From Ignavibacteriales bacterium (GTDB taxonomy: Bacteria; Bacteroidota; Ignavibacteria; Ignavibacteriales; Ignavibacteriaceae): a stretch of 37,152 nucleotides of DNA. Numbering within the stretch: the stretch's first letter is position 1; the number at the start of each line of letters is the position of its first letter. The stretch lies in NCBI GenBank assembly GCA_016182615.1, contig JACPGF010000048.1, forward strand, positions 1 to 37,152, in the 5' to 3' direction. The position numbers and the translations under genes are program-made. Shown here in pieces: positions 1 through 25,737 of the stretch. The notes under the pieces are model-generated. The model saw only the letters and a list, made by a program, of their open reading frames with translations. It made no database searches and had not been told where the DNA came from.

Positions 1-1850
1 TTTTTCAAATTACTATAATTTCATTACGTTTAACAAACACAAAAATTCCCAATTACACATTCCTGCACCCCAGCGGGGTGCTCTGTTTGTAGAAAAGGCC
101 ATCCAAAATGCGTTCAGCGCCCCGTAGGGGTGCACCTTCCCAATTGCCAAACATTTCCATTTTATCCATCTCTCATGCTTCCCGTGCGGGATTACCCCTA
201 CGGGGCAATAGGACATTCGGCTGGCGCGGTTTCCTACAAACAGAAAACCCCTCCGGGGCTTAAAACCGCCAATAATGGGGTTTGAATCAAAATTGTGCTG
301 ATGTTTTGTCATCAACATTGTTTTTTCAAATTACTATTTTTTCGCTACGCTTAATAAACACAAAAATCCCCGATTACCCGTTTCTGCGCCCCATCGCGGT
401 GTTCTGTCTGTAGAAAACCCCATCCCAAAAGACGTTCAGCGCCCTGTAAGGGTGCACCTTCCCAATTGCCAAACATTTCCATTTTATCCATCTCTCTTGC
501 TTTCCGTGCGGGATTACCCCTACGGGGCAAAAAAAGCGGGGGTAGCGGGTTTTGCTACAAACGGAAGACCCCTCCGGGGCCTTTAGAAGCCAACAATTGG
601 GTCAGAATCAAAATTGAGCTGATATTTTTTCGTCAACACTTTTTCAAATTTATATGTTTTCGCTACGATTAATAAACACAATAAACCCCAAATACACATT
701 TCTGCGCCCCGTCGGGGTGCACTCGTTTATTGAATATCAAGAGGAATAAATTTAGCATCATAGGTAACGTGAAATTTCTCCAAAAATAATTTATATTCCT
801 CGGTGAATGTTGTTTTCTGTGATGTTTTTCTTGATCCTGTATATATCGCACGACCTGTTCGATTTGTGAATGACTGTAGGAAAATGCCCCATATCCCTCT
901 TGCCATGAAAATTTGCTCCGGATAAGTCTTTCCTGATTAATCCACATGGAAGATGCCGATTTGACATCCCTCATCAAATCGGGAATTAATTGGGCTATTT
1001 CATACCCAATTAATAAATGAACATGATTCGCAACCCCATTTATCGCGATGAGTTTATGCCCCCGGTTCTGAACAACTCCTGTAATATAACGGTACAGTTC
1101 CTCTTTCCATTCAGGTAAAATTAGTGACTCTCTGTTTTTAACAGCAAAAACAAATTGCAGATAAATTTGTGTAAAAGTATTTGCCATATATATCCATTTA
1201 TTAATGATGTATGCAATTATAAACGGCTCTAAATATTCTTTTCTTACATGGTAAATGTAATATCTCTTGCAATAAAATGAAATTACATCTACCATTTTTT
1301 TGTTTTCCGTGCGGGATTACCCCTACGGGGCAATAGAACGTTGGTGGCGGGGTTTGCTACAAACGGAAGACCCCTACGGGGCTTGGAACCGCCAATAATG
1401 GGGCTTGAATCAAAATTGGATTGATGCTTTATCATCAACATAGTTTTCAAAATTTTTTGATTTCATCTCGTTTAACAAACACAAAAATTTCCATTTACAA
1501 CATTCAAGCGCCCCGCGGGGTGCTCTGTTTGTAGAAAAATCCCTCCCAAATGCGTTCAGCGCCCCGTAGAGGTGCACCTTCCCAATTGCCAAACATTTCC
1601 ATTTTATCCATCTCTGTTGCCTTCCGTGCGAGTTTACCCCTACGGGGCAACAAAACGTGTGTGGCGGGTTTTGCTACAAACAGAAAACCCCTACGGGGCT
1701 TTTAGCGGCCAACAATGTAGTTTGAATCAATATTGGATTGATGTTTCATCATCAACAATTTTTTGCAAATTTATATGTTTTCGCTACGCTTAATAAACAC
1801 AAAAATCCCCAATTACACGTTTCTGCGCCCCGGCGGGTGCCCTGTTTGAA
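1..1850. repeat. Tandem array of ~320-bp palindrome-rich REP-like units
   Basis: Five successive units begin near 1, 321, 641, 1443 and 1759. The first, second and fourth are about 320 bp. The third is about 800 bp because it carries a transposase gene, and the fifth is cut off near 1850. Two anchors show the register: CCCAATTGCCAAACATTTCC starts at 139, 461 and 1581, and GTGCGGGATTACCCCTACGG recurs near 184, 506, 1309 and (diverged) 1626. Each full unit carries GC-rich hairpins built on CCCC-TACG/GTAG-GGGG cores, for example at 66-82, 118-136, 188-208 and 247-262, and the inverted words CTGTTTGTAG and CTACAAACAG. Open frames inside the array run through repeat sequence and are not believed. 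This layout fits REP/BIME elements mobilised by the embedded transposase. No other gene is supported here. Confidence 0.85.
727..1187 (-). pseudogene. REP-associated IS200-like tyrosine transposase (RAYT), frameshifted near the C-terminus
   Basis: This is a single-strand HUH transposase of the Y1/IS200 superfamily (TnpA-REP type), expected to nick and move REP hairpins. The start chosen is the ATG at 1187, giving MANTFTQIYLQFVFAVKNRE, the usual family start. The HUH motif is H55-V56-H57, the likely catalytic Tyr is Y115 in VVRYIQDQ, and the family motif FSWQEGYGAFSYS is present. After HHRK (residue 125, about position 813-816) the open frame runs on for 40 unrelated residues. The other frame instead gives the expected family tail TTFTEEYKLFLEKFHVTYD and stops at 727-729. 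One A lost from an A-run (T-run on the plus strand) explains this. The restored protein would be 153 residues. The gene lies between two palindromes of its own repeat unit. It could be decaying, a sequencing error, or a slippage site. Family call is sure; inactivity is an inference. Confidence 0.85.
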
Positions 1851-11423: not shown

Positions 11424-12719
11424 ATGAAAACATTAATACAAAACTGCTTGATCGATGGTGCTTTACAGTTTGTACTCATCAATAATGAGTGCCTGGAGAG
11501 TGTCACCCCTTTTCCGCAGGAAGCAGACCGGATTATTGATCTTGAAGGCAAGATGTTGATACCGGGAATGATTGACCTGCACACGCACATTAGAGATTTA
11601 CAACAAGCATATAAAGAAGACTGGCACAGTGCCAGCTCCGCGGCTTTGGCGGGGGGAGTAACAACCATCTTTGATATGCCTAATACGGTTCCGGCAACAG
11701 ACACCCTTGAGCATCTTATGGAAAAACAGCACGTGGCGGCTTGCTCGAAGGTAAATTATGGTATGTATGGCGGTGCCACACCCCATAATCTGGAGGATCT
11801 CGAAGAGATGCTTGATGAAGGCTCCATATCGGGCATTAAAGTATTTCTGTCGGCTTCCAGTTCTAATGAAGTAGTTGCCGATGAAAACCTGCTGAAACAA
11901 ATCTGTGCACTTGCCCGTAAATACGATAAGCCAGTGCTGACGCACTGCGAACTCCAGGACTGCATAACCGAACATGAAAAAATGTATCACGGCGATGCAT
12001 ACAATTCCGTTATGTATCATGGTGCAATAAGGAACAGAGTATGCGCGTATAAAGCGGTTGAGCTAATGCTGAGGATTTCATCGGAAGTAAAAAATAAGCT
12101 GATGATTTTGCACGTCTCAACGGAAGAAGAAATGCAGTTGGTCAAAGCATACAAGCAGACAGCGGATTTCCCGGTTTATGCCGAAGTAACCCCGCATCAC
12201 CTGTTCTTAACCGAGGATGTATTGAAAGACGCGGGAAATTACGGTAAAGTTAACCCTCCGCTCAGGATGATGAAAGATACCGAAGCCTTGATGAATGCCC
12301 TGTTAAAAGGTTACATTGATACAATAGGCTCAGACCATGCCCCGCATGGTTTGCAGGAAAAGCAGAAGCCGTACCGTGAGGCACCGTCCGGGTTCCCGGG
12401 TTTAGAGACTTCGCTCCCTCTTCTCCTATCCCGGCACTTGCAGCAAAAAGACATTCCTTTAGATACTATTATCCGTTTAACATCCACTAATCCTTCACAA
12501 ATAATGCAATTGGAAAAACGGGGGAAGCTGCTCCCCGGCTACTATGCCGATTTTGCCGTTATTGACCAGCATGCCGAAGTGGTTGTGAGCGCGGAACATT
12601 TTTTAACGAAAGCAAAATATACTCCTTTCGAGGGCTTTCCCTTGCAAGGTAAAGTAGTTACAACATTTATTAACGGCAAAGAACACCATCAGAAAGGAAA
12701 GGCAATCTTTCATGACTAA
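11424..12719 (+). CDS. pyrC: Dihydroorotase, class I amidohydrolase type
   Basis: A 431-residue zinc enzyme that cyclises carbamoyl aspartate to dihydroorotate. The metal site shows H53-T-H55-I-R57 in GMIDLHTHIRD. The expected carbamylated lysine is K139 in GIKVFLS, followed by H174 in VLTHCE, H230 in ILHVSTEE, the NPPLR substrate motif near 277-281, and the catalytic Asp D304 in GSDHAPH. The C-terminal GYYADFAVID returns to the small beta-sandwich typical of the superfamily. Allantoinase or hydantoinase is an alternative for this fold, but the 8-nt overlap with the OPRT-OMPDC gene and the pyr context favour dihydroorotase. It is the first gene of a seven-gene plus-strand run. Confidence 0.94.
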   Translation: MKTLIQNCLIDGALQFVLINNECLESVTPFPQEADRIIDLEGKMLIPGMIDLHTHIRDLQQAYKEDWHSASSAALAGGVTTIFDMPNTVPATDTLEHLMEKQHVAACSKVNYGMYGGATPHNLEDLEEMLDEGSISGIKVFLSASSSNEVVADENLLKQICALARKYDKPVLTHCELQDCITEHEKMYHGDAYNSVMYHGAIRNRVCAYKAVELMLRISSEVKNKLMILHVSTEEEMQLVKAYKQTADFPVYAEVTPHHLFLTEDVLKDAGNYGKVNPPLRMMKDTEALMNALLKGYIDTIGSDHAPHGLQEKQKPYREAPSGFPGLETSLPLLLSRHLQQKDIPLDTIIRLTSTNPSQIMQLEKRGKLLPGYYADFAVIDQHAEVVVSAEHFLTKAKYTPFEGFPLQGKVVTTFINGKEHHQKGKAIFHD

Positions 12720-14088
12720 AACCGATTTTATCGTTAGTATGTTTGAAGCCGGAGTGCTGAAATTCGGGTCATTTACCCTTAAAAGCGGTATAACATCACC
12801 GTTTTATCTAAACCTTCGTCAGTTTATATCGTATCCCGATTTGATGCAGGGAATCTCGAGGCTTCTTGCAGATGTATTGCCTCCTGCCTTGCAATACGAG
12901 AGGATAGCAGGAGTGCCCTATACTGGAATCCCTCTTGCATCAGCCCTTTCCCTTCACCTGAACAAACCCTTAATTATACCCCGCAAAGAAGAAAAAGCTT
13001 ATGGCTCAAAAGATGCCATCATGGGCGAATACAGCCAAGGCGACCGCTGCCTTCTGGTAGAGGATTTGGTGACTTCGGGCGAGAGTATTCTTGAAACAAG
13101 GCAGCAGATGATAGACAATGGATTGAATCCCATTGCAGGTGTGGTACTTGTTGACCGGCGTGCGGTAAAGGATGATTTTGCCAAAAATACCGGGCTGCCG
13201 CTTTATGCAGTAACAAACATCGAGGAAATTATTCAGGTGCTGATGGAAAAAGGCTTAATGTCTAACGAAACAGCCAAAGAAATACAAATGTTTCTGATGA
13301 ATTCATCAATGCCGAAAGCTGTTCAGCAGACCGCTATTGAGAATGCTTCCACCGCATCACTATTGCAAACCATGCAGCGCAAGCAAAGCAATCTGGTGCT
13401 CTCGTTGGATGTTGACACGGAAAAAGAATTTTTTGCAATAGTTGAGCAGTGCGGCAAACATATCGCGATGCTTAAAACCCATATTGATATACTCGCGGAT
13501 TTTTCCCCTGCATTTATAAACCGCTTGCAGGAGGCTGCAAAAGCATACGACTTTAAAATCTTCGAGGACAGGAAATTTGCCGATATAGGTAACACGGTGC
13601 GCATGCAGTACCGCGGCGGAATTTATAAAATAGCCGACTGGTCAGAGTTTGTAACCGTTCATGCAATTGCCGGTGAAGCGATTCTTAACGGTCTATTTGA
13701 CGGGCTTGCAAACAGGAGTTCTTTCTTGCTGGCAAGAATGTCGGCAAAGAATAATCTTATTTCAGAAAACTATACCCGTAAGGTTTTAGAGATTGGTAAA
13801 AATAACAGGCATGTTGTTTCCGGCTTTATCGGTCATGGTAAGGACGAGAAGGACATCCGTTTGTTTAAGAATAAAATACCCGCGGGAATGCTTTTGCTGA
13901 TGCCCGGTGTGCAGATGGAAAGCAAAGGCGACGGGCTTGGGCAGCAGTATATTACTCCCGAGATGGCAGTGCGTGGCGGCGCGGATATGATTATTGTCGG
14001 CCGTGGTATTACCCATGCTGCAAGTCCGGCGGAAGCATCAGAACGATACCGTGAAACGGCTTGGAACGAACTAAGTAAACTTATATAA
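12712..14088 (+). CDS. pyrEF: Bifunctional orotate phosphoribosyltransferase / OMP decarboxylase (UMP synthase, eukaryote-like OMPDC)
   Basis: A 458-residue fusion performing the last two steps to UMP. Residues 1 to about 200 are OPRT: FTLKSGITSPFYLNLRQ, the substrate loop RKEEKAYG, and the PRPP motif LLVEDLVTSGES (114-125). Residues about 225-458 are OMP decarboxylase with SLDV (D233), LKTHIDIL (K255), and FEDRKFADIGNT holding the Lys-Asp-Lys-Asp tetrad (K255, D286, K288, D291). Later come LLMPGV and KGDGLGQQY and the phosphate loop IIVGRGI. The IFEDRKFADIGNTV and KGDGLGQQY wording is that of yeast URA3 and animal UMPS; most bacteria have either the short type I PyrF or the divergent type II enzyme. 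The OPRT-first order is also the animal order. The gene overlaps pyrC by 8 nt and has a GGAAAGG Shine-Dalgarno. Confidence 0.95.
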   Translation: MTKTDFIVSMFEAGVLKFGSFTLKSGITSPFYLNLRQFISYPDLMQGISRLLADVLPPALQYERIAGVPYTGIPLASALSLHLNKPLIIPRKEEKAYGSKDAIMGEYSQGDRCLLVEDLVTSGESILETRQQMIDNGLNPIAGVVLVDRRAVKDDFAKNTGLPLYAVTNIEEIIQVLMEKGLMSNETAKEIQMFLMNSSMPKAVQQTAIENASTASLLQTMQRKQSNLVLSLDVDTEKEFFAIVEQCGKHIAMLKTHIDILADFSPAFINRLQEAAKAYDFKIFEDRKFADIGNTVRMQYRGGIYKIADWSEFVTVHAIAGEAILNGLFDGLANRSSFLLARMSAKNNLISENYTRKVLEIGKNNRHVVSGFIGHGKDEKDIRLFKNKIPAGMLLLMPGVQMESKGDGLGQQYITPEMAVRGGADMIIVGRGITHAASPAEASERYRETAWNELSKLI

Positions 14089-14104: not shown

Positions 14105-15682
14105 ATGATTAAAATACAGAGAGCGCTCATAAGCGTTACCGATAAAACAAATCTACGGGAGCTTGCAGAAGTACTGCAAGCGCACGGAACAGAAATTATT
14201 TCAACCGGTGGCACAGGGGCATTCCTTGCCGGGGCAGGTATTCCTTATACCGAAATAAGCACCGTTACCGGTAATCCGGAAGCATTTGGTGGCAGGATGA
14301 AAACCATTTCATTCAATATTGAATCAGCCTTGCTTTTTGACAGGGAAAAAGACGCGGCGGAAGCAGTCCAATTGAACATTAAGCCAATTGATCTTGTGGT
14401 ATGTAATCTGTATGCATTTGAAAAATACCGCGAGGCAGGAACGGAACTCAGTGAACTGATTCACCATATTGACATTGGCGGTCCGACCATGATACGGGCT
14501 GCTGCAAAGAATTCTAAATATGTAGCTGTTGTTACTGACATACATGATTACGATACCGTCATTAGTGAACTTCGAACCAATGCCGGGGCACTTGGGTATG
14601 AAACCAGAAAACGGTTAATGGCGAAAGCCTTTAACCTGACTGCTGACTATGATGCGGCTATAGCTCAAGCAATGGATAGTTTTAACGGAGTTGATTCACT
14701 GCGCCTCTCATTTACCGGAGGAAAAACACTCCGTTACGGCGAGAACTCGCATCAGCAGGCTTCGTTGTACAGGTTAGCAGGCAAAAACTCAGCACTGTAT
14801 GATATGGAAGTTTTACACGGCATGGAAGTTTCGTATAATAATATTCTTGATGTTCAGGCTGCAATAGAAACCGTGTCAACATTCAGCCATACCGGCTGCG
14901 TTATTGTTAAACATAATAACCCATGCGGGATGGCAGAAGGCAAAAGCCAGCGACGTGCATTTGAACTTGCATGGGAAGGCGATACGGTATCTGCATTCGG
15001 CGGTATAATTGCTTTTAATACCGAAGCAACTATAGAGGCAGTTAGTTATTTGGCTTTTGATGCTGAAGATAAAAGCAAGCGCAAGTTTGTTGAGATTGTT
15101 GCTGCGCCATCTTTTACTGAAGATGCGCTTGCATACCTGAAACAACAAAAGAATTTGCGGATTATCCGGTTCTCAACGGATATGATAAAAGCGACCGAAG
15201 AATTGCGCATATCGAACAACACTCTACTACGGCAGTCTAAAGATAATACTTTATACAGTAAGATTGATTCAGTAACGGAAACACCATTCGATATTGAAAA
15301 GCAGAAGGACTTGGTAGCTTTCGGGTTGCGTGCTGTGCAGTATATTAAATCCAATGCCATAGCACTGGTAATGCGCACACCTGAGAATTATTTACAGCTT
15401 ATCGGCATGGGCTCCGGGCAGCCGAACCGTGTTAACTCCGTTGGGCTTGCTGTAACAAAGGCAAAAAAGAATCTTGGCGTTGACACGCTTGCCGGGATAG
15501 ATATTCTTCTTGCATCCGATGCTTTTTTCCCGTTTGAAGATAACATCGATTTGGCACACGAAGCTGGTATTACAAAAATCATACAGCCGGGCGGTTCAAT
15601 ACGGGATAAGCATGTTATTGCACGCTGTAATGAACTTGGTGTAAGTATGGCGCTTACCGGTTGCAGGCATTTTAAGCATTAA
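14105..15682 (+). CDS. purH: Bifunctional AICAR transformylase / IMP cyclohydrolase PurH
   Basis: A 525-residue enzyme catalysing the last two steps to IMP. The N-terminal IMP cyclohydrolase (about 1-190) has SVTDKTNL, STGGT, GGRMKT, CNLYAF and IGGPTMIRAAAKN. The transformylase part has LRYGENSHQ, the catalytic KHNNPCG, KSNAIALV, GSGQPNRV and the C-terminal TGCRHFKH. The loop usually read as GGRVKTLHPK is GGRMKTISFN here. The Arg, Lys and Thr that contact the nucleotide are kept, but the HP pair is lost, and NLYPF is NLYAF. This is a variant subtype, not a clear defect. It follows the UMP synthase gene after 16 nt, so purine and pyrimidine genes share one transcriptional direction and probably one operon. 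Confidence 0.96.
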   Translation: MIKIQRALISVTDKTNLRELAEVLQAHGTEIISTGGTGAFLAGAGIPYTEISTVTGNPEAFGGRMKTISFNIESALLFDREKDAAEAVQLNIKPIDLVVCNLYAFEKYREAGTELSELIHHIDIGGPTMIRAAAKNSKYVAVVTDIHDYDTVISELRTNAGALGYETRKRLMAKAFNLTADYDAAIAQAMDSFNGVDSLRLSFTGGKTLRYGENSHQQASLYRLAGKNSALYDMEVLHGMEVSYNNILDVQAAIETVSTFSHTGCVIVKHNNPCGMAEGKSQRRAFELAWEGDTVSAFGGIIAFNTEATIEAVSYLAFDAEDKSKRKFVEIVAAPSFTEDALAYLKQQKNLRIIRFSTDMIKATEELRISNNTLLRQSKDNTLYSKIDSVTETPFDIEKQKDLVAFGLRAVQYIKSNAIALVMRTPENYLQLIGMGSGQPNRVNSVGLAVTKAKKNLGVDTLAGIDILLASDAFFPFEDNIDLAHEAGITKIIQPGGSIRDKHVIARCNELGVSMALTGCRHFKH

Positions 15683-15701: not shown

Positions 15702-16793
15702 ATGGCTAAAACGAACAGCGGTATAAATACAAACCTTGGCAGTGCCTGCTCAAAAACAGCATTTGCATGGGCGAAAGGGACATTTAATAACCGCAAAAAA
15801 AACGGAGTAATGATTCCCACGGTTGACGGTGCCTATGCCTCGATGATGGATTGCAATGGCTCGCTCATTGGCATATCATCAGATGGCATCGGGACGAAAG
15901 TGGAAATTGCCGAGCGGATGAAGAAATATGATACCCTTGGTTATGACCTGCTGGCGATGACTGTTGACGACCTTGTTTCCAATGGCTTCGAGCCCGTCAG
16001 CATTTCGAATATTCTGGATGTTGACCATTTGAACCATGCAACGGTTGATGCATTAATGCGCGGGTTGCACGACGCGGCAAAATTTTCAAGGGTTATTGTT
16101 ACCGGTGGAGAAATTGCCGAACTTGGTTCGCGTATAGCTGGTTACGGTAAGGGTATGCATTTTAACTGGTGTGCCACGGGAATGGGTATTTTGCATCCGA
16201 ACCTGAAGCAGCCTTTGAATGGTATGGATATAATGCCCGGTGATGCTATTATTAGTATTTACAATCCCGGGTTTAGAAGTAACGGTTTTTCACTGCTTAG
16301 AAAAATCCTTACTGAAAAATACGGTGAAAACTGGCACGCGAAAACCGACAAGCGCAGTAAAATGAAATGGGGCGATGCAGCCCTGACCCCGTGCTTGATT
16401 TATTCACCGGTTGTAGTGAAGCTGCTGAGTAAATTAACCGCCATTCATGGTATAGCCCATATTACCGGGGGCGGGGTAGTAGATAACCTTGGGCGGCTGC
16501 TGAAGCACAAAGCGCTTGGTGCCGATCTGAACAATTTGTTTACACCTGAGCCTTATTTCGAATCATTAATAAAAATGGGAAATGTTCCGCTGAGTAAAGC
16601 GTATCAATACTGGAACATGGGGAACGGCATGCTGATAATACTCCCGGCAAAAGAGGTTAACAAGGCACTTAAGATTATTAACGGGACCGAGCCTTACAAG
16701 GCACAAGTTGCCGGATACGTGACAGACAGAAAACTGATTGAGATTACCATAGACAATACAATTTTACCATATACTACATACGATACAAAATGA
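15702..16793 (+). CDS. purM: Phosphoribosylformylglycinamidine cyclo-ligase (AIR synthase) PurM
   Basis: A 363-residue ATP-dependent enzyme that closes the imidazole ring of AIR. Family signals are SSDGIGTKVEIA (about 65-76, nucleotide and metal binding), YDLLAMTVDDLVSNG, VTGGEIAEL, the FRSNGFSLLR motif, and HITGGGVVDNLGR near the end of the conserved core. It is moderately diverged from the E. coli type but full length. It follows purH after 19 nt, and its stop overlaps the purSL start by four bases (ATGA at 16790-16793), a sign of translational coupling with the enzyme that supplies its substrate FGAM. Confidence 0.94.
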   Translation: MAKTNSGINTNLGSACSKTAFAWAKGTFNNRKKNGVMIPTVDGAYASMMDCNGSLIGISSDGIGTKVEIAERMKKYDTLGYDLLAMTVDDLVSNGFEPVSISNILDVDHLNHATVDALMRGLHDAAKFSRVIVTGGEIAELGSRIAGYGKGMHFNWCATGMGILHPNLKQPLNGMDIMPGDAIISIYNPGFRSNGFSLLRKILTEKYGENWHAKTDKRSKMKWGDAALTPCLIYSPVVVKLLSKLTAIHGIAHITGGGVVDNLGRLLKHKALGADLNNLFTPEPYFESLIKMGNVPLSKAYQYWNMGNGMLIILPAKEVNKALKIINGTEPYKAQVAGYVTDRKLIEITIDNTILPYTTYDTK

Positions 16794-19700
16794 AATTACC
16801 ATCCTATCACACGGTTCAGGTGTTTCTGAAAAGCGGTATAAAAGATTCCGCCGGAATACATCTGCGTGAAAAGATAATGAAATACCTTAATATTGAAACC
16901 GGAAAAATCCGGACGGGAAAAATCTATGTAATTGACTATCCGTTGCAGGATGAAGAGTTACAGAGATTTGCCAACGAAGGCTTGAGTGATGTTGTTGTTA
17001 ACGAGTACAGTATCAATGCACCGCTTATGCAAAAGGGTTTTGATTCATATATCATAATAGCAAAGCTGCCCGGTGTAACCGATGATGAGGGAATGTCGGC
17101 GCAGAAAACACTTATTGACATGTTCAGTCCGGAAACAGCGCCGGATGTGCAAAAAATATTCTCTCAGGATTTTTATCTGTTTGAAAATATACTTGCCGAT
17201 ACTGAACTACAGGTAATTGCCGATACGTTTCTTGCAAATAAATTAATCAATCATATCAGCACGGGAAGGTTTGAGCAACAGGCTCCGCTCTATGTTCCCG
17301 AAGTGCACCTGCATATTGATAACACCGTTGAAGCCGTGCCAATCGATTTTGAGGATGAGGAATTACTTGCCTTATCTAACAGCCGTTTGCTGGCGCTTAA
17401 CCTTGAAGAAATGCGGGTGATTAAATCGCATTACCTGAGTAAAAAAACTGCAAGCTACCGGAAAGCGGCTGGATTACCTGAACATCCAACAGACTGCGAT
17501 CTGGAAATTATTGCGCAGACATGGTCTGAGCATTGCAAGCATAAAGAGTTTAATGCTGAGATAATTTATATTGAGCCTGAGACCGGCAGAACGCTGCTGA
17601 TTGATTCGCTCTTTAAAGCGTATATCAAAAATGCCACACAGGATGTGCAGGAGACACTTGAAAAAGCCGGGCTGAAGTGGCTGGTGAAAGTGTTCTCAGA
17701 TAATGCAGGCGTGGTAAAAATTAACGATGAAGAATTATTCGTCTGGAAAGTTGAAACACATAATTCCCCATCTGCAATGGATCCTTACGGCGGTGCAATT
17801 ACGGGCATACTTGGCAACAACCGTGACCCGCTCGGCACTGGTATCGGCGGAGCAAAACTGCTGTTTAACACCAACGTGTTATGTTTCGGTCCGCCCTCAT
17901 ATTCCAAATCATTGCTCACCGGACAGCTGCACCCCCGCCGTATATTTGAAGGCGTGCGAAAAGGCATTGAAGACGGCGGCAATAAATCGGGTATTCCAAC
18001 AGTGAACGGCTCGGTAATATTTGATGACCGTTATTCCGGTAAGCCGCTTGTTTATTGCGGTACCGGCGGCATTATGCCTGCAAAATTTAACGGCAGGGAT
18101 TCGTGGGTAAAAGAGATTACGCCGGGAAGCCTTATTGTATCTGTTGGCGGCAGAGTTGGCAAAGACGGCATTCATGGTGCAACTTTCTCCTCGCGCGAAA
18201 TTGATGAGCACTCGCCGCAGTCTGCCGTGCAGATTGGCAGTCCTATAGTGCAAAAAATGGCGGCAGACTTTTTAGAAAAAGCCGCGCATAAAGGTTTAAT
18301 ACAATGCAGTACCGACTGCGGTGCAGGCGGGTTATCCTCGGCAATTGGAGAACTTGCAACTATTAGCGACGGCGCTGAAGTGTATCTCGAAAAAGTTAAA
18401 TTGAAATATTCAGGCCTGAAACCTTGGGAAATTTTCCTTTCCGAGTCACAGGAACGCATGATACTTGCAGTGCTGCCGGAACATTTGCATGAATTACTTG
18501 CGCTGGCACGCCACATGGAAAGTGAATATGCAGTAATAGGCAAATTTACCGGTAACGGGTATCTGAAAGTTATGTACGAAGGCGAACCGGTATCATACCT
18601 GCCGCTTGAATTTTTACATAACGGTGTCCCTAAAAAATACTTAAAGGCAGAGTGGAGGCCTGTGGCAAAATCAGTTGCAACTATTCCACAGGGGATTGAC
18701 TATACTGATATGCTGCTCCGATTGATGGGCAGTGATGCGGTCAGTTCGCGCGAATACCTGATACGGCAGTATGACCATGAAGTGAAGGGGAAGACGATTA
18801 TAAAACCACTCATGGGCAAACACCGTTCATCACCGCAGGATGCGGCAGTTGTCAGGACGGGGTTTACATCATACGAAGGGATAGCGGTTTCCAACGGCAT
18901 TATGCCAAAGTATGTTGAGATTGACCCGTACATGAGCTCGGCAGCAGCCTTTGATGAGGCTGTGCGGCAGATTATTGCAATTGGCGGAAAACTTCCGTTG
19001 TACAATACAGCAAAAAGTTTGTTCTGGTCAGTTAACGACAATTTCTGTGTCCCTGATTCGGTCTGGCATCCTGAGAATAATCCTGACGGTAAGCGGAAAT
19101 TAGGGCAGCTTGTGCAGATGTGTGAAGCGTTATACGATATGAGCACATTTTATGCTATCCCAATGACATCGGGAAAAGACAGCATGAAAAATGATTTTAA
19201 GTCAGACGGCATTAAAATATCCGTACCGCCGACATTGTTATACTCGATGGCTGCTAAGATTGAGGACGTGCGCAAAACAGTAACCGCGGAGTTTAAAACA
19301 CCGGGCGATATTATCTATGTTATCGGCAGAACTCATAACGAACCGGGCGAATCGGAATTCTTTAAGCTCCTGGGATTAAAGGATACCCGTATCCCCATGG
19401 TACGTAAAGAAATTGCAGCCCGGACATACCGGAAGATGATGCACGCGCACGAGAGAGGGATGATACACTCAGCGCATGATATTTCCGATGGCGGAATGAT
19501 TGTAACACTTGCAGAGTGCTGTTTTGGCAATATGCTCGGTGCAGAAATTGTTCTGCCGGTAAGCCGGGATACGAGTGCCGCGACACTGCTCTTTTCCGAA
19601 TCGCACAGCAGGTTTGTTGTTACAGTTAAACCAAAGCACAGGGAAAAATTCGAGGAATATATGGGCGGCAAAGCACATTATTTGGGCGTGGTTACTGCCG

Positions 19701-19804
19701 AGCCCGAAATAATTGTTACGGCAAATGAGGAGAAAATTATCAACTGTAAAACTGAGGATGTATATACAGCATGGAAAACCGGATTAACAAGGCAGGTGAT
19801 ATAA
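16790..19804 (+). CDS. purL: FGAM synthase subunit, fused PurS-like domain and PurL
   Basis: A 1004-residue protein converting FGAR to FGAM with ATP and ammonia delivered by PurQ. Residues 1 to about 85 (VQVFLKSGIKDSAGIHLREK) look like PurS, the small subunit that bridges PurL and PurQ. PurL proper follows, with the catalytic His in WSEHCKHKEF (H248) and KVETHNSPSA, GTGIGGAK, CSTDCGAGGLSSA, FLSESQERM, TSGKDSMKND and HDISDGGM. Stand-alone small PurL is about 700-750 residues and the large gamma-proteobacterial form about 1300 with its own glutaminase; this is an intermediate form with PurS fused and PurQ separate. The start overlaps purM by 4 nt and the stop overlaps the purQ ATG by 1 nt. Confidence 0.93.
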   Translation: MKLPSYHTVQVFLKSGIKDSAGIHLREKIMKYLNIETGKIRTGKIYVIDYPLQDEELQRFANEGLSDVVVNEYSINAPLMQKGFDSYIIIAKLPGVTDDEGMSAQKTLIDMFSPETAPDVQKIFSQDFYLFENILADTELQVIADTFLANKLINHISTGRFEQQAPLYVPEVHLHIDNTVEAVPIDFEDEELLALSNSRLLALNLEEMRVIKSHYLSKKTASYRKAAGLPEHPTDCDLEIIAQTWSEHCKHKEFNAEIIYIEPETGRTLLIDSLFKAYIKNATQDVQETLEKAGLKWLVKVFSDNAGVVKINDEELFVWKVETHNSPSAMDPYGGAITGILGNNRDPLGTGIGGAKLLFNTNVLCFGPPSYSKSLLTGQLHPRRIFEGVRKGIEDGGNKSGIPTVNGSVIFDDRYSGKPLVYCGTGGIMPAKFNGRDSWVKEITPGSLIVSVGGRVGKDGIHGATFSSREIDEHSPQSAVQIGSPIVQKMAADFLEKAAHKGLIQCSTDCGAGGLSSAIGELATISDGAEVYLEKVKLKYSGLKPWEIFLSESQERMILAVLPEHLHELLALARHMESEYAVIGKFTGNGYLKVMYEGEPVSYLPLEFLHNGVPKKYLKAEWRPVAKSVATIPQGIDYTDMLLRLMGSDAVSSREYLIRQYDHEVKGKTIIKPLMGKHRSSPQDAAVVRTGFTSYEGIAVSNGIMPKYVEIDPYMSSAAAFDEAVRQIIAIGGKLPLYNTAKSLFWSVNDNFCVPDSVWHPENNPDGKRKLGQLVQMCEALYDMSTFYAIPMTSGKDSMKNDFKSDGIKISVPPTLLYSMAAKIEDVRKTVTAEFKTPGDIIYVIGRTHNEPGESEFFKLLGLKDTRIPMVRKEIAARTYRKMMHAHERGMIHSAHDISDGGMIVTLAECCFGNMLGAEIVLPVSRDTSAATLLFSESHSRFVVTVKPKHREKFEEYMGGKAHYLGVVTAEPEIIVTANEEKIINCKTEDVYTAWKTGLTRQVI

Positions 19805-20586
19805 TGGCAATACGTGCATTGGTAATTACCGGCTTTGGCATTAACTGCGAAGAAGAAATGGCGGCTGCTTTCAGGCTTGCCGGAGCAGAGGCTGAAATAA
19901 CGCATATCAACGATATTTTTTCCGGCAGTGTGAATATTCACGAGTTTGATATTGTCAGCATTCCCGGCGGTTTTAGCTTTGGTGACGATATTGCTTCGGG
20001 AAAAGTTCTGGCAAATAAAATACGTTTTAAAAAACTTGGCAGCCAAGGCACACTGCTTGATGAGATTAAAGCTTTTATTGGCAATGGTAATTATATAATC
20101 GGTATTTGTAACGGGTTTCAGGTTCTTACAAGGCTTGGGCTGCTGCCGAATATTGCCGGAACCTGTACACAGGAGGCTTCGTTAATTCACAATGATTCGG
20201 GACGTTTTATTGATGACTGGACAGGAGTTTCAGTCCCCGTGATCAGTTCTTTTTTTGACGGGCTGCACTCATTCGAGCTACCCATAAGGCACGGCGAGGG
20301 TAAACTGGTTTTTGCCGATGAGACGGTAAGAACCAAAGTAAAAGAATTCGGGCTCAACTTCCTGACTTATACAAATAACCCGAACGGTTCGGAAATGGAC
20401 TGCGCGGGTTTGACTGATGTGACCGGAAAAGTAATTGGCATGATGCCGCATCCTGAGGCATTCCTGACAAAGTATAATCATCCGGCATGGAACAACGCAC
20501 AGCCGGGCAGTAAAAATGACGAATACGGTGCAGGATTTTATTTCTTTAAACATTTAGTTGAACAGGTAAAAAAGCAAAAAGGTTAA
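19804..20586 (+). CDS. purQ: FGAM synthase glutaminase subunit PurQ
   Basis: A 260-residue class I glutamine amidotransferase that releases ammonia for PurL. The nucleophile is C102 in GICNGFQVL, and the His-Glu pair is H216 and E218 in MMPHPEA. SIPGGFSFGDDIASGK is the PurQ-specific segment. The start at 19804 is preferred over an upstream frame extension because it gives the family start MAIRALVITGFGINCEEE, has an AGGCAGGTGA ribosome site, and overlaps the purL stop by only one base. It is longer than the 225-230-residue Bacillus form, closer to the 260-residue archaeal or Bacteroidota type. It acts with the PurS-PurL fusion upstream. Confidence 0.96.
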   Translation: MAIRALVITGFGINCEEEMAAAFRLAGAEAEITHINDIFSGSVNIHEFDIVSIPGGFSFGDDIASGKVLANKIRFKKLGSQGTLLDEIKAFIGNGNYIIGICNGFQVLTRLGLLPNIAGTCTQEASLIHNDSGRFIDDWTGVSVPVISSFFDGLHSFELPIRHGEGKLVFADETVRTKVKEFGLNFLTYTNNPNGSEMDCAGLTDVTGKVIGMMPHPEAFLTKYNHPAWNNAQPGSKNDEYGAGFYFFKHLVEQVKKQKG

Positions 20587-20590
20587 TGCT

Positions 20591-21994
20591 ATGAATTATT
20601 TTACAAGTTTTACAACACCGCAAATTAAAAAAATACATGCAGGCAAAGTCAGAGACAGTTTTTCACTTGATGCCGGACGCAGGATGATTGTTGTAACTGA
20701 CCGCATATCGGCTTTTGACCGGGTGTTGAAATCTCCTATACCAATGAAGGGGGCAGTCCTGAATGGTATTGCTAATTTTTGGTTCCACAAAACAGAGCAC
20801 ATTATCGAGAACCATTTGCTTGAAGAAATCGATGCTAACATCACCATTGTTAAGCAAGTAACCCCGGTAAAAATAGAGATGATTGTCCGCGGGTATCTTA
20901 CCGGCAGCATGTGGCGTTATTACAGTAAAGGGAAACGGGAATTTTCCGGCATCAGTGTACCTGACGGCTTAACAAAAAACCAAAAATTTCCTGAGCCGAT
21001 ACTTACCCCTACAACCAAAGAGGACAGTGACCGTGAAATCACTCCTGATGATATAATTGCACAGGGACTTGCAAGTAAGGAAGTCTATGAAACCATCGCG
21101 CGAACCGCTCTGGCATTGTACAAGTTTGGTTCGGAATATTTATACGGTAAGGGAATTATTCTGGTTGATACCAAGTATGAATTCGGTTTGTTGAATGGTA
21201 AAGTGGTATTGATTGATGAAATCCATACGCCTGATTCATCGCGGTTCTGGCGGGTTGAAGATTATAAAGCGAATCCGGACACTGCAGAGCAGATTGATAA
21301 AGAATTTGTCCGCCAATGGCTTATTTCGAATGAGAAGAATGGCGAATATCCGCAAGTACTGCCCGGCGGCATAATTACAGAAACTACCAAGCGCTATGCA
21401 GATATATACCGTATGGTAACTGGAGAGGAACTTCCCGTAGCGTTGAATGAAAATGTAAAGGCAAGAATATATCACAACCTTGTAAAGGCGGGACTGATAA
21501 AGCCCGGATATGTTGCACTTGTTATGGGTTCGGCTGGCGATAAAAAGCACGCGGAAAGTATTGCAGAGCACTTGAAGCCTTATAAAGTGCATGTTGAAAT
21601 GCGTGTTACCTCGGCTCATAAGAATGGGGAAAACATATTGCAAATGGCGGACATGTATAATAATTCAATCGAGCCCGGCGTACTAATAGCCATTGCCGGA
21701 AGAAGCAACGGTTTAGGCGGTGCATTAGCGGCTAATGTTAATGTGCCTGTTATTAACTGCCCGCCGTTTAAGGATGTGGCGGATATCATGATGAATGTGA
21801 ACTCGTCATTAATGATGCCTTCGGCAACTCCGGCGGTAACGGTAATTCACCCCGACAATGCCGCGCTTGCTGCAATACGTGCGCTGAATTTGCACAATTT
21901 TAGGGAAATTTTTTCGGCGCAGATTCAAAAGCAAAAGCAGGCATTGGCAGAGGCTGATGCAGAGTTTTTAAAAGAATCAGCGGTGAACAAATAA
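20591..21994 (+). CDS. purCE: Fused SAICAR synthetase (PurC) and class II-like AIR carboxylase (PurE), PAICS-like
   Basis: A 467-residue fusion. Residues 1 to about 290 are SAICAR synthetase: HAGKVRDSF, DRISAFD, IVRGYLTGS, LVDTKYEFG, IDEIHTPDSSRFW. Residues about 300-467 are PurE, with VMGSAGD (312-317), RVTSAHK (S341-A342-H343-K344), IAIAGRSNGLGGALAANV and PVINCPPF. Class I bacterial PurE reads SAHRTP; the SAHK signature and the AGRSNGLG wording match the animal PAICS carboxylase, a class II enzyme using CO2 directly on AIR. PurC first and PurE second is also the animal order. No purK (needed by class I PurE) is present in the window, which agrees. It starts 4 nt after purQ and ends the seven-gene run; a repeat-borne hairpin follows. 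Confidence 0.93.
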   Translation: MNYFTSFTTPQIKKIHAGKVRDSFSLDAGRRMIVVTDRISAFDRVLKSPIPMKGAVLNGIANFWFHKTEHIIENHLLEEIDANITIVKQVTPVKIEMIVRGYLTGSMWRYYSKGKREFSGISVPDGLTKNQKFPEPILTPTTKEDSDREITPDDIIAQGLASKEVYETIARTALALYKFGSEYLYGKGIILVDTKYEFGLLNGKVVLIDEIHTPDSSRFWRVEDYKANPDTAEQIDKEFVRQWLISNEKNGEYPQVLPGGIITETTKRYADIYRMVTGEELPVALNENVKARIYHNLVKAGLIKPGYVALVMGSAGDKKHAESIAEHLKPYKVHVEMRVTSAHKNGENILQMADMYNNSIEPGVLIAIAGRSNGLGGALAANVNVPVINCPPFKDVADIMMNVNSSLMMPSATPAVTVIHPDNAALAAIRALNLHNFREIFSAQIQKQKQALAEADAEFLKESAVNK

Positions 21995-22016
21995 ACTTTA
22001 AGGAAATGGTGCTTTA

Positions 22017-22166
22017 TTTTTCCGAAGTCCCCCTTTTTGAAAAGGGGGTGGCCGAAGGCCGGGGGAATCGTTTTTAGGCTGTGTTAACGCCGCTAAAACA
22101 ATTCTCCTCCCATTTGGTAAGCTTTTCGCTAAAGCGATCCACCCTCCTTTCAATATGAGGGACTTA
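22017..22166 (+). repeat. Dispersed hairpin repeat, copy 2 plus a divergent inverted copy 3
   Basis: Positions 22017-22100 match, in opposite orientation, the repeat at 3687-3776: TTTTCCGAAGTCCCCC, a CCCCCTTTT/AAAAGGGGG hairpin at 22029-22048, GGCC-TTC-GGCC, GGGGGAATCG, TTTTTAGGC, GTTAAC and CGCTAAAACA. It starts 22 nt behind the purC-purE stop and reads in the gene's direction, so it may act as a terminator. Positions 22091-22166 are a diverged head-to-head copy, with CGCTAAAGCGATCCACCC and a CCTCCTTTC/ATGAGGG arm. Confidence 0.75.
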
Positions 22167-22255
22167 GCTGCACAGCAGGATTATCGAAATTCGGGTGAAA
22201 TGAGGATCCCGATAATTCGAATTTAGGTTTTGAGAAAAGTAATATTTTGCTATGA

Positions 22256-22325
22256 TTCAGTCCCGTTAGGGACGAAATATTTATAGCAAACAAATGAATA
22301 ACGGTTTTCAGTCCCGTTAGGGACG
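22256..22325. repeat. Pair of 19-bp palindromic repeats
   Basis: The word TTCAGTCCCGTTAGGGACG occurs at 22256-22274 and again at 22307-22325, with 32 bp between. Each holds a short palindrome GTCCC-GTTA-GGGAC. Sequences of this kind are common intergenic REP-type elements in related genomes, by memory of the general pattern. They lie in the 477-bp gap before purD. Besides these repeats and a hairpin at 22438, nothing else is recognised in 21995-22471. Confidence 0.8.
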
Positions 22326-22437
22326 CGACAGATGAGCGGTAATGTAAATTGCCAACATAATAAATACATCGTTGTTTGAAGTTCTTAAACCACGATGCAA
22401 ATGGTAAAAAATGGTACTCTACACACGTAAAATGAAA

Positions 22438-22453
22438 GGCTGCTTTGGCAGCC
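22438..22453 (+). promoter_or_regulatory. Small hairpin in the purD leader
   Basis: GGCTGC pairs perfectly with GCAGCC across a TTTG loop, ending 18 nt before the purD ATG. There is no U-tract behind it, so it is not a terminator. It could affect mRNA stability or ribosome access. No purine riboswitch or PurR-box-like element was recognised around it. Confidence 0.35.
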
Positions 22454-22471
22454 ATAAACAAAATAAAAAGA

Positions 22472-23731
22472 ATGAATAAAATTAATATAGCAATTGTAGG
22501 CTCTGGCGGCAGAGAACATGCACTTTCCTGGAAATTGCAGGTCTCGCCTTTGGTTGGAACCGTATATACAATTCCGGGCAACGGAGGAATAGAAAACAGC
22601 ATTGCCCTTGATATAGCCGATTACAATGTACTACTACAATGGTGCCGTAAACAGGAAGTATCATTGCTTGTTGTTGGACCCGAGAACCATCTTGCTGCCG
22701 GTATAGTCGATTTTTTCGCCGGTACGGAAATTATGGTGTTTGGCCCTGATAAGACCGCTTCGCAATTGGAAAGTTCGAAAAGTTTTGCAAAAAGCTTTAT
22801 GAGCCGTTATGGCGTTGCAACTGCAAAATATGTTAGTGTTGAAGAGCCTTATGATGCATCAAGCCTTGCAAAAACCGCCGCGGAGTTTAACGGTAAAGTT
22901 GTTATTAAATACGACGGTCTTGCTGCCGGTAAGGGTGTGTTTGTCTGTAACACGCAATTTCAGATAGATGAGGCAATTGCAACAATACTCTCCCGTTATG
23001 GAAATACACAACCCATCGTATTTGAAGAGCTGCTTTCCGGCCCGGAACTTTCCTATATAGGTCTGACTGATGGAAGAACCGTAAAACTGTTTCAAGCATC
23101 ACAAGACCACAAGCGATTGCTTGACAATGACGAAGGCCCCAATACAGGCGGAATGGGCGCTTATACACCGGTTACAATGGCAGACAGCAAAGTTGACAAA
23201 CTGGTAATGGATGAAATTGTACTGCCAACTTTGAAGGGCATTACTAATGAGCATTTTAACTACAAGGGATTTATCTATTTTGGGGTTTTAATGGATAACG
23301 GTAAACCCTATTTGCTTGAGTATAACGTAAGAATGGGCGACCCGGAAACAGAAGTGCTGCTGCCTTCACTTAAAACGGATTTGCTTGAGCTGGTTCTTGC
23401 TACGTTGGCAGGTAAACTTGACGGGACGGGTATGGAGTTTTATCCCGGATCTTTTGTTGATGTTGTCATGGTTGCTAAGGGCTATCCCGGTGATTATCAA
23501 ACGGGAAACCTGATTCATGGCCTTGAAACAACTATCCCCGGCACATGGGTTTTTCATGCAGGCACAAAAAAGATGGATGCTGGAATTGTTAGTTCCGGCG
23601 GACGTGTGCTGAACATTGTTGCACATGGCGCAGATTTTAACGAAGCCCGTGAGAAAGCATACCGGCTTTGCAGCAGCGTGCAGTTCGAGGATTGTTTTTA
23701 CCGCTGCGATATTGGTGCGAAAAATATATGA
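22472..23731 (+). CDS. purD: Phosphoribosylamine-glycine ligase (GAR synthetase) PurD
   Basis: A 419-residue ATP-grasp ligase joining phosphoribosylamine and glycine. The start at 22472 gives MNKINIAIVGSGGREHALSW, the expected N-terminus; an upstream in-frame TTG would add nine residues ahead of the family start and sits in a hairpin. Motifs are VIKYDGLAAGKGV (ATP-grasp Lys and Gly-rich loop), NTGGMGAYTPV, and EYNVRMGDPETEV (metal-binding Glu and Asn). Length is normal. It begins a second purine run, purD-purN-purF, and overlaps purN by four bases (ATGA at 23728-23731). Confidence 0.96.
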   Translation: MNKINIAIVGSGGREHALSWKLQVSPLVGTVYTIPGNGGIENSIALDIADYNVLLQWCRKQEVSLLVVGPENHLAAGIVDFFAGTEIMVFGPDKTASQLESSKSFAKSFMSRYGVATAKYVSVEEPYDASSLAKTAAEFNGKVVIKYDGLAAGKGVFVCNTQFQIDEAIATILSRYGNTQPIVFEELLSGPELSYIGLTDGRTVKLFQASQDHKRLLDNDEGPNTGGMGAYTPVTMADSKVDKLVMDEIVLPTLKGITNEHFNYKGFIYFGVLMDNGKPYLLEYNVRMGDPETEVLLPSLKTDLLELVLATLAGKLDGTGMEFYPGSFVDVVMVAKGYPGDYQTGNLIHGLETTIPGTWVFHAGTKKMDAGIVSSGGRVLNIVAHGADFNEAREKAYRLCSSVQFEDCFYRCDIGAKNI

Positions 23732-24309
23732 GAAAAGTTAACTTCGCATTGTTTATCTCGGGCAGGGGGAGTAACATGGAGGCTATTTTACGAAATTGTT
23801 TGTCAGGAGAATTGGGCAATGTCTGTGAACCGCGGATAGTGCTGTCAAACAATGCGGAAGCAGCTGGACTGCACACAGCCGAAAGCTTAGGCTTTGAAAC
23901 CGTGGTGGTTGTTTCAAAAGGAACAAGCCGGGAGGTTTTCGAAAGAGAAGTCTTATCAATACTGCTTGCAAAAAATGTTGAGTATATTGTGCTTGCAGGT
24001 TTCAACAGGATAATCTCCCCGTTTTTACTGCATCATTTTCCGAATAAAATTATTAATATACATCCGGCTGATACAAAAGCGTATCAGGGGCTGCACGGCT
24101 ATGCATGGGCATTTGAACAGAAACTGCCGGTTACAAAAGTAACGGTGCATTATGTTGATGAAGGGATAGACACAGGCAACATTATTATGCAGGAAGAAGT
24201 TGATTTACAGGGGGCAGTTTCACTCGAAGAGGTAATGGCAAGAGGGCTGCGTGTAGAGCACGCGCTATACAGTAGAGCATTAACAAAAGTTTTTTCAGAA
24301 AGTATATAA
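23728..24309 (+). CDS. purN: Phosphoribosylglycinamide formyltransferase PurN
   Basis: A 193-residue 10-formyltetrahydrofolate-dependent GAR transformylase. The start overlaps the purD stop and yields MRKVNFALFISGRGSNMEAI, with the phosphate-binding GRGSNM loop. The catalytic Asn-His-Asp set is visible as NIHP (Asn and His) and HYVDEGIDTG (Asp). The segment NIHPADTKAYQGLHGYAWAF differs from the usual HPSLLPAFKGLHA wording but keeps the GLH core. No PurT (formate-using alternative) is seen in the window. Purine synthesis here would therefore use folate at both formyl steps (PurN and PurH). Confidence 0.94.
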   Translation: MRKVNFALFISGRGSNMEAILRNCLSGELGNVCEPRIVLSNNAEAAGLHTAESLGFETVVVVSKGTSREVFEREVLSILLAKNVEYIVLAGFNRIISPFLLHHFPNKIINIHPADTKAYQGLHGYAWAFEQKLPVTKVTVHYVDEGIDTGNIIMQEEVDLQGAVSLEEVMARGLRVEHALYSRALTKVFSESI

Positions 24310-24312
24310 GAT

Positions 24313-25737
24313 ATGTGCGGAATTATTGGTCTGTCGGGTCACGAAAATATTATCAGCGATTTACTATTCGGCCTTTCGACATTGCAGCACAGGGGGCAAA
24401 CCTCCTGCGGGATGGTAACGTTTGATAAACTGTTTCATACACATAAAGGTCTTGGTGTTATCTCTCATGTTTTTGATAAGGATAGTGTTCAGAAACTGAC
24501 TGGGGATATTGGCCTGGGACATGTTAGGTATGCCACGCAGGGCTCCGATGATATTATTAACGCGCAGCCGTTTACTATCAACTATCCTTTTGGCATCGCG
24601 ATGATACATAACGGCAACATTATCAATTTTAACGAGCTCCGCAAAACGATGTACGAGGAAAACCATATTCTCCTTGAAACATCGAATGACCTTGAATTAA
24701 TTTTGTACACGTTTTCGTCGGAACTTGCAAAAAAAGATTTGAAGCATCTTAAGGTTGAAGATATTTTTGAGGCAGTAACCAAAACACAAAAAAAAGTAAT
24801 CGGTGCATACGCGGCCATATCAGTAATAGCCAACCGCGGCCTGCTGGCCTTTACCGATCCGAATGGAATACGGCCATTGGCGCTCGGTAGGCGGCAAACC
24901 GACACCGGATACGAATACGGGTTTGCGTCGGAATCTTCTTCATTCGATTATCTTGGTTACGAACTAATGGGCAACCTTGAACCGGGTGAAGCGGTTTTTG
25001 TTGATATGGATAACAATTTGTTCCGGAAGATTTGCCATCAAAAAGAACGGGCATTCTGCATATTCGAATACATCTACTTTGCCCGTGAAGACAGCCGCAT
25101 GCATAATGTTCTTGTTGCCGAGGAGCGCATGAAGATGGGTAGATTGCTTGCTGCCAAAGTCCGTTCTGCCGGTTTGCAGCCTGACATCGTTATTGATGTC
25201 CCTTCTTCGGCGTACTTTTTTGCCGCGAGCCTCGCGGAAGAGCTGGGTGTTCCCTACCGGAGAGGTTTGGCAAAAAACAATCATATCGGCAGAAGTTTTA
25301 TTCTTTCAACACAAAAAGAGCGGGAGACTACCGCCCGCCTGAAACTGAATCCAATAAAAGAAATAGTTGCCGGTAAAAAAGTTGTTATAGTTGATGACTC
25401 GATCGTACGCGGTACAACTTCAAAGCATATTGTGCATCTGCTAAAAAAAGCGGGTGCAACGGCGGTTTATTTTGTGTCTGCCGCACCGCCTATTAAAAAC
25501 CCATGCGTGTATGGCATCGATATGGCAATAAGTGACGAGTTGATTGGACGCAAGAGTGAAGAAGAAATTGCTAAGTATCTAGAGGTAGATGCGCTTATCT
25601 ATCAGTCACTTGACGACTTGCAGGAGTTGTATAAAAATGAAGGCTTTTGCTACGCGTGCTTTAGCGGAAAATATCCTGTAAGCAATTCATTGGAATATTT
25701 ACAGAGTGTTGAGGCAGAGCGGAAGCTGAATTGTTGA
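24313..25737 (+). CDS. purF: Amidophosphoribosyltransferase PurF, Fe-S type
   Basis: A 474-residue enzyme for the first committed purine step, making phosphoribosylamine from PRPP and glutamine. The glutaminase domain begins directly with MCGIIGL, so Cys2 becomes the nucleophile after Met removal; there is no propeptide as in Bacillus. LQHRGQTSCG, GHVRYATQG and HNGNI follow. The PRPP motif is VVIVDDSIVRGTTS near 357-370. Four cysteines match the Bacillus/animal 4Fe-4S ligand pattern: C249 (CIFEYIYFARED), C398 (NPCVYGID), C446 and C449 (CYACFSGKYP). This points to an oxygen-sensitive cluster-bearing form, unlike E. coli PurF. It starts 3 nt after purN and is the end of the plus-strand purine genes. 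Confidence 0.96.
   Translation: MCGIIGLSGHENIISDLLFGLSTLQHRGQTSCGMVTFDKLFHTHKGLGVISHVFDKDSVQKLTGDIGLGHVRYATQGSDDIINAQPFTINYPFGIAMIHNGNIINFNELRKTMYEENHILLETSNDLELILYTFSSELAKKDLKHLKVEDIFEAVTKTQKKVIGAYAAISVIANRGLLAFTDPNGIRPLALGRRQTDTGYEYGFASESSSFDYLGYELMGNLEPGEAVFVDMDNNLFRKICHQKERAFCIFEYIYFAREDSRMHNVLVAEERMKMGRLLAAKVRSAGLQPDIVIDVPSSAYFFAASLAEELGVPYRRGLAKNNHIGRSFILSTQKERETTARLKLNPIKEIVAGKKVVIVDDSIVRGTTSKHIVHLLKKAGATAVYFVSAAPPIKNPCVYGIDMAISDELIGRKSEEEIAKYLEVDALIYQSLDDLQELYKNEGFCYACFSGKYPVSNSLEYLQSVEAERKLNC

Follow-up and report, generated by a model that had tools for sequence, protein, structure and literature searches.

A bacterial PurC-PurE fusion with a predicted class II AIR carboxylase half, and its either-or relation to purK

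Introduction

Animals carry AIR carboxylase and SAICAR synthetase on one chain, PAICS (ADE2; PDB 2h31, 6yb8, 4ja0), in which a class II PurE domain follows PurC, and fused PurCE proteins are common in eukaryotes (PMC3261824). Animal cells add CO2 to AIR directly, where bacteria usually spend ATP on an indirect route. Because animals take the direct route, the N5-CAIR enzymes have been pursued as antibacterial targets (PMC11451730). A bacterial AIR carboxylase is known from Treponema denticola (Tranchimand et al., 2011, as cited in PMC9376930), whose class II PurE (PDB 3rg8, 3rgg) is a stand-alone protein of 159 amino acids with no PurC fused to it. A class II-like PurE in genomes without PurK is also known from Archaeoglobi, and no PurC fusion is described for the Archaeoglobus protein (PMC3261824). 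The SAICAR synthetases of yeast (Ade1) and Mycobacterium abscessus (PurC; PDB 1a48, 2cnq, 6yvq) are monofunctional, and yeast uses PurK and class I PurE.

Here we describe a fused purC-purE gene found in a 37,152 nt stretch of DNA from an Ignavibacteriales bacterium (the window). Like PAICS, its product is predicted to combine both activities on a single chain, PurC first, with a PurE half of class II. Unlike PAICS, it is bacterial, it is encoded within a purine gene cluster, and its PurC half comes from another subfamily, that of yeast Ade1 and M. abscessus PurC. It shares a bacterial class II PurE with T. denticola, whose protein occupies a separate class II branch, and its genome resembles that of Archaeoglobus in being prokaryotic and without PurK. 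We consider it very likely that the window protein is a bifunctional AIR carboxylase/SAICAR synthetase that would use CO2 without ATP, PurK or N5-CAIR, and that the fusion is convergent with PAICS and moves with the purine cluster around it.

Our search of the open-access literature found no report of a bacterial PurC-PurE fusion. The same holds for its patchy distribution, for the reciprocity with purK and for the decayed domain of Aureispira described below. The parts are known; the bacterial combination, its scattered spread over phyla and the either-or relation to purK look unreported.

Results and discussion

A single open reading frame encodes PurC and PurE

The initial annotation had proposed a PurC-PurE fusion, and Pfam agrees, finding SAICAR_synt (E = 6e-72) followed by AIRC (E = 3e-32) on one open reading frame (Table 1). 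The PurC half scores 242.6 bits against PF01259 (cut-off 20) and 197 bits against TIGR00081 (cut-off 189.9), and an AlphaFold2 model of the fusion protein, as a monomer, has a mean pLDDT of 86. The window genome is a metagenome-assembled genome (MAG) of 5.1 Mb in 489 contigs, 89.8% complete. The same fusion junction occurs in 13 further genomes, in proteins 56-64% identical to that of the window, and so is no assembly accident. To judge from its sequence, this one protein very probably performs two consecutive steps of purine synthesis.

Table 1. Coordinates of the fused gene, its domains, other features of the window and related loci in other genomes
Feature	Coordinates	Strand	Remarks
purC-purE (class II) fusion gene	20591..21994	+	467 aa, ATG start, open ORF; predicted SAICAR synthetase + AIR carboxylase
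SAICAR synthetase (PurC) domain	20633..21340	+	Residues 15-250; yeast Ade1/mycobacterial subfamily; Pfam, structure comparison
Class II PurE / AIR carboxylase domain	21512..21940	+	Residues 308-450; Pfam, tree, motifs
IS200-like Y1 transposase	669-1295		About 9 kb before the plus-strand nucleotide-gene run
pyrC	11424..12719	+	Dihydroorotase
pyrE-pyrF fusion	12712..14088	+	OPRT then OMP decarboxylase
purH	14105..15682	+	
purM	15702..16793	+	
purL	16790..19804	+	1004 aa, N-terminal PurS-like domain + FGAR-AT linker fused on
purQ	19771..20586	+	Separate gene
purD	22445..23731	+	True start probably slightly downstream
purN	23668..24309	+	True start probably downstream
purF	24313..25737	+	
Type-B fusion loci	L130:1366-2871, L131:1399-2871, L132:1-1500		
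Aureispira PurC with shortened PurE-like tail	L072:3322-4620, L073:8001-9296, L074:8001-9263		

The PurE half belongs to class II

Two segments had suggested a class II enzyme, and both are indeed read in the PurE half. Specifically, SAHRTP of class I is replaced by VTSAHKNGEN (at about residues 338-348 of the fusion protein) and GGAAHLPG by AIAGRSNGLGG (at about 367-377), which places the key residues at S341, A342, H343 and K344 and at A369, G370, R371, S372, N373, G374 and L375. The best matches of this half among solved structures are silkworm PAICS (4ja0; 95 bits), T. denticola PurE (3rg8; 83 bits) and human PAICS (2h31; 75 bits), compared with 49 bits or less for class I PurE structures. 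The AlphaFold2 model likewise superposes with Z 21 on T. denticola PurE (about 34% identity) versus Z 18.4 on the best class I structure. At 96.6 bits against the N5-CAIR mutase model TIGR01162 (NCBIfam), the domain falls short of the curated cut-off (149.6 bits). Automatic annotation that follows the nearest PurE model would suggest an N5-CAIR mutase, probably wrongly here.

When compared with a model of the human PAICS carboxylase site (PMC9376930), 15 of 18 residues of the window PurE are identical, including those equivalent to human Ser301, Ala302, His303 and Lys304 and to AGRSNGL. The three differences, human to window, are Thr275 to Ala315, Ser276 to Gly316 and Val328 to Ile368. The second of these falls on a phosphate-binding position; Asp317 and Lys344 are kept.

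A maximum-likelihood tree of 58 rows splits PurE into class I and class II at 100/100. The window domain falls in class II, on the side of the T. denticola and Bombyx references, inside a clade (100/99) of 14 fusion proteins that we call type A. Holding type A beside class I PurE is not rejected (AU p = 0.39, 154-column PurE alignment), a split that fits type A as a basal class II branch and leaves the division between the classes unbroken. By motifs, tree, pocket residues and profile score, the PurE half is assigned to class II (AIR carboxylase, EC 4.1.1.21), as the initial annotation had predicted.

A second bacterial fusion

Another family of the same class (family f66; G613, G663, G714) carries a PurC-PurE(II) fusion, type B, that is 39% identical to the window fusion. 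Types A and B may go back to a single ancient bacterial fusion instead of two, a reading that we place somewhat below an even chance. The PurC halves are sisters (100/99, on long branches), and joining the PurE halves of A and B is not rejected (AU p = 0.46, 154-column PurE alignment). In the best PurE tree, however, type B stands apart from type A, and both the linkers and the motifs differ (SAHKEPE and GLSG in type B, SAHKNGE and GLGG in type A).

The fusion arose separately from animal PAICS

The PurC half matches yeast Ade1 with E = 9e-55 and M. abscessus PurC with E = 1e-39, whereas the PurC domain of animal PAICS is matched with E = 1.4 only (phmmer). Its model superposes on yeast SAICAR synthetase 2cnq with Z 32, and over the structures of this subfamily Z is 31-32 at 33-37% identity. 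The proposal that the domains are fused as in animals thus holds for their order, PurC then PurE(II), and fails for the subfamily of PurC. Since the PurC half is of a different subfamily from that of PAICS, the fusion arose separately, and on sequence grounds the bacterial architecture is convergent with the animal one whatever the origin of its PurE half.

That the PurE half was itself transferred from a eukaryotic PAICS, with the fusion related to the animal one, is unlikely. Such a transfer would agree with animal PAICS being the best PDB match of this half, with the pairing of type A PurE and silkworm PAICS (92/74, where long branches meet) and with the eukaryote-like origin reported for PurE of Archaeoglobi (PMC3261824). 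Yet the PurC half makes at least the fusion event a separate one, and type A PurE and the other class II groups are equally deep. AU tests on type A with animals give no decision on the 154-column PurE alignment.

Class II PurE excludes purK

As the initial annotation had noted, there is no purK in the window. Extending the search to the whole genome (89.8% complete) gave no match over the curated cut-off and no second PurE; the sole purK match is the AccC biotin carboxylase, and the idea of a divergent ATP-grasp protein serving as purK was rejected on this ground.

Type-A fusions occur in 14 genomes (window, G121, G206, G414, L063-L071, L075) of Ignavibacteriales, Flavobacteriales, Chitinophagales, Spirochaetota and Armatimonadota, none of which has purK. 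It is also absent from all three genomes with type-B fusions and from all ten with a stand-alone class II PurE (L037 and the spirochaetes L152-L160). The latter include the clade of T. denticola PurE (L155-L159), in which the L159 protein lies at zero branch length from the sequence of the T. denticola structure. All 55 relatives that encode their own PurE have class I by motif; purK is present in 25 of these and missing from the other 30. For the difference between the classes Fisher's test gives p = 5e-6, a value that ignores relatedness.

Relatedness can be taken into account where the intact fusion has been lost, which happened three times independently in the PurC tree. purK is present in all three cases, the expected direction in an independent-pairs sign test, in which three pairs cannot reach 0.05. 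Where type-A PurC stands unfused or bears a decayed tail, purK passes the cut-off in six genomes (L072-L074, L076-L078). These six and L080, where purK is in fragments, also have a class I PurE. One further genome with a type-A PurC lacking an intact PurE half (L079) is too incomplete for a purK call.

Class II therefore excludes purK (0 of 27 genomes), whereas a genome without purK need not be class II. The gene is missing from 30 of the 55 class I relatives too, so its absence is weak evidence by itself, and we rejected it as sufficient evidence for class II. Furthermore, archaea with a class I PurE and no PurK are already known, a combination explained there by CO2 supply, and class I PurE can dispense with PurK when CO2 is high (PMC3261824). 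A missing purK is therefore no proof of the route.

It is very unlikely that the window domain is an N5-CAIR mutase whose purK lies on sequence missing from the 90% complete bin. The bin is incomplete and spread over many contigs, but purK is absent from the 13 other fusion genomes too, and chance loss in all of them would be most improbable; tree, pocket and profile score also count against a mutase.

In the family and order of the window genome, it is common for a genome with class I PurE to have no purK. In G121 and G206, a class I-type PurE with SPHRTP in place of SAHRTP (L107 and L108, respectively) occurs beside the class II fusion, with no purK. This co-occurrence counts against the function that we propose for the fusion.

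A decayed carboxylase half in Aureispira

Three Aureispira genomes (L072-L074) encode a PurC followed by a shortened PurE-like tail. SAHK has become SADR in L072 and L073 and the motif is gone in L074, so that the catalytic His is lost, as are the CPPF.D and SSL.MPS blocks. The tail of L073, the named strain CCB-QB1, scores 29.9 bits in Pfam, just under the cut-off. All three genomes have an intact class I purE-purK pair elsewhere. The fused tail is probably a pseudoenzyme domain, catalytically dead, and Aureispira is a natural experiment in which the carboxylase half appears to decay where the other route is present. That the fused PurE half of the window protein is dead as well, with AIR carboxylated non-enzymatically or by another enzyme, is hardly credible even with this precedent, because it retains the His and the blocks that Aureispira lost, and its genome offers no class I PurE or PurK as a substitute, as those of Aureispira do.

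Proposed function

For the bifunctional protein that we favour, we infer the activity, CO2 as its substrate, the oligomer and the passage of CAIR between sites; residue roles are assigned by homology with the mechanism calculated for human PAICS (PMC9376930). The class II PurE domain would carboxylate AIR at C4 with dissolved CO2, requiring no ATP, PurK or N5-CAIR. C4 of AIR would attack CO2 and His343, as general base, would take the C4 proton, while Lys344, Ser314 and Arg371 would hold the phosphate. CAIR would then pass to the PurC site and be joined with aspartate in an ATP-dependent step to give SAICAR. Both domains would probably sit in one oligomer built on a PurE octamer core.

If so, the animal solution of class II carboxylase plus SAICAR synthetase arose separately in bacteria, where it strictly tracks the absence of purK, and the either-or pattern offers a natural test of when cells spend ATP on AIR carboxylation. 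Bacteria with a direct CO2 route would be indifferent to inhibitors of the N5-CAIR enzymes.

The purine cluster travels as a whole

The fused gene lies in an island of nucleotide genes (Table 1) whose minus strand carries pyrB, pyrI, pyrD and pyrK, and also guaA and guaB. A 450-base gap (21995-22445) separates it from purD; a minus-strand open reading frame within this gap is probably spurious, and Rfam finds no element there or anywhere else in the window.

The identity of the window cluster genes is 43-63% with clusters of other orders and phyla and 50-71% with those of two other Ignavibacteriales (L075 and L076/L190/L200), but mostly 31-41% with counterparts elsewhere in their own family and order. 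A genome of the same genus (G001, 99% complete) is without PurC, PurE and PurH. By this pattern the whole purine cluster co-travels, and horizontal acquisition is the simplest reading. A mis-binned contig was rejected, as a gene of 1094 aa located 6 kb past the window is 61-68% identical to members of the family and order. The IS200-like Y1 transposase could bear on the mobility of the cluster.

A more tentative extension is that the PurK-free PurC-PurE(II) cluster has moved repeatedly between phyla, with lineages switching between the CO2 and the ATP/N5-CAIR routes and Aureispira caught after such a switch; this we regard as possible, and as rather less probable than not. In that case PurK and class I PurE would have replaced the fused carboxylase, which would survive there only as a non-catalytic scaffold for PurC.

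G694, another member of the family, also lacks PurC, PurE and PurH, and it and G001 are probable purine auxotrophs by gene content. G024 and G711 have a PurH of the window type and no PurC or PurE match. The PyrE-PyrF fusion has the same domain order as eukaryotic UMP synthase, and it is also found in three of the co-travelling clusters (L064, L066 and L070).
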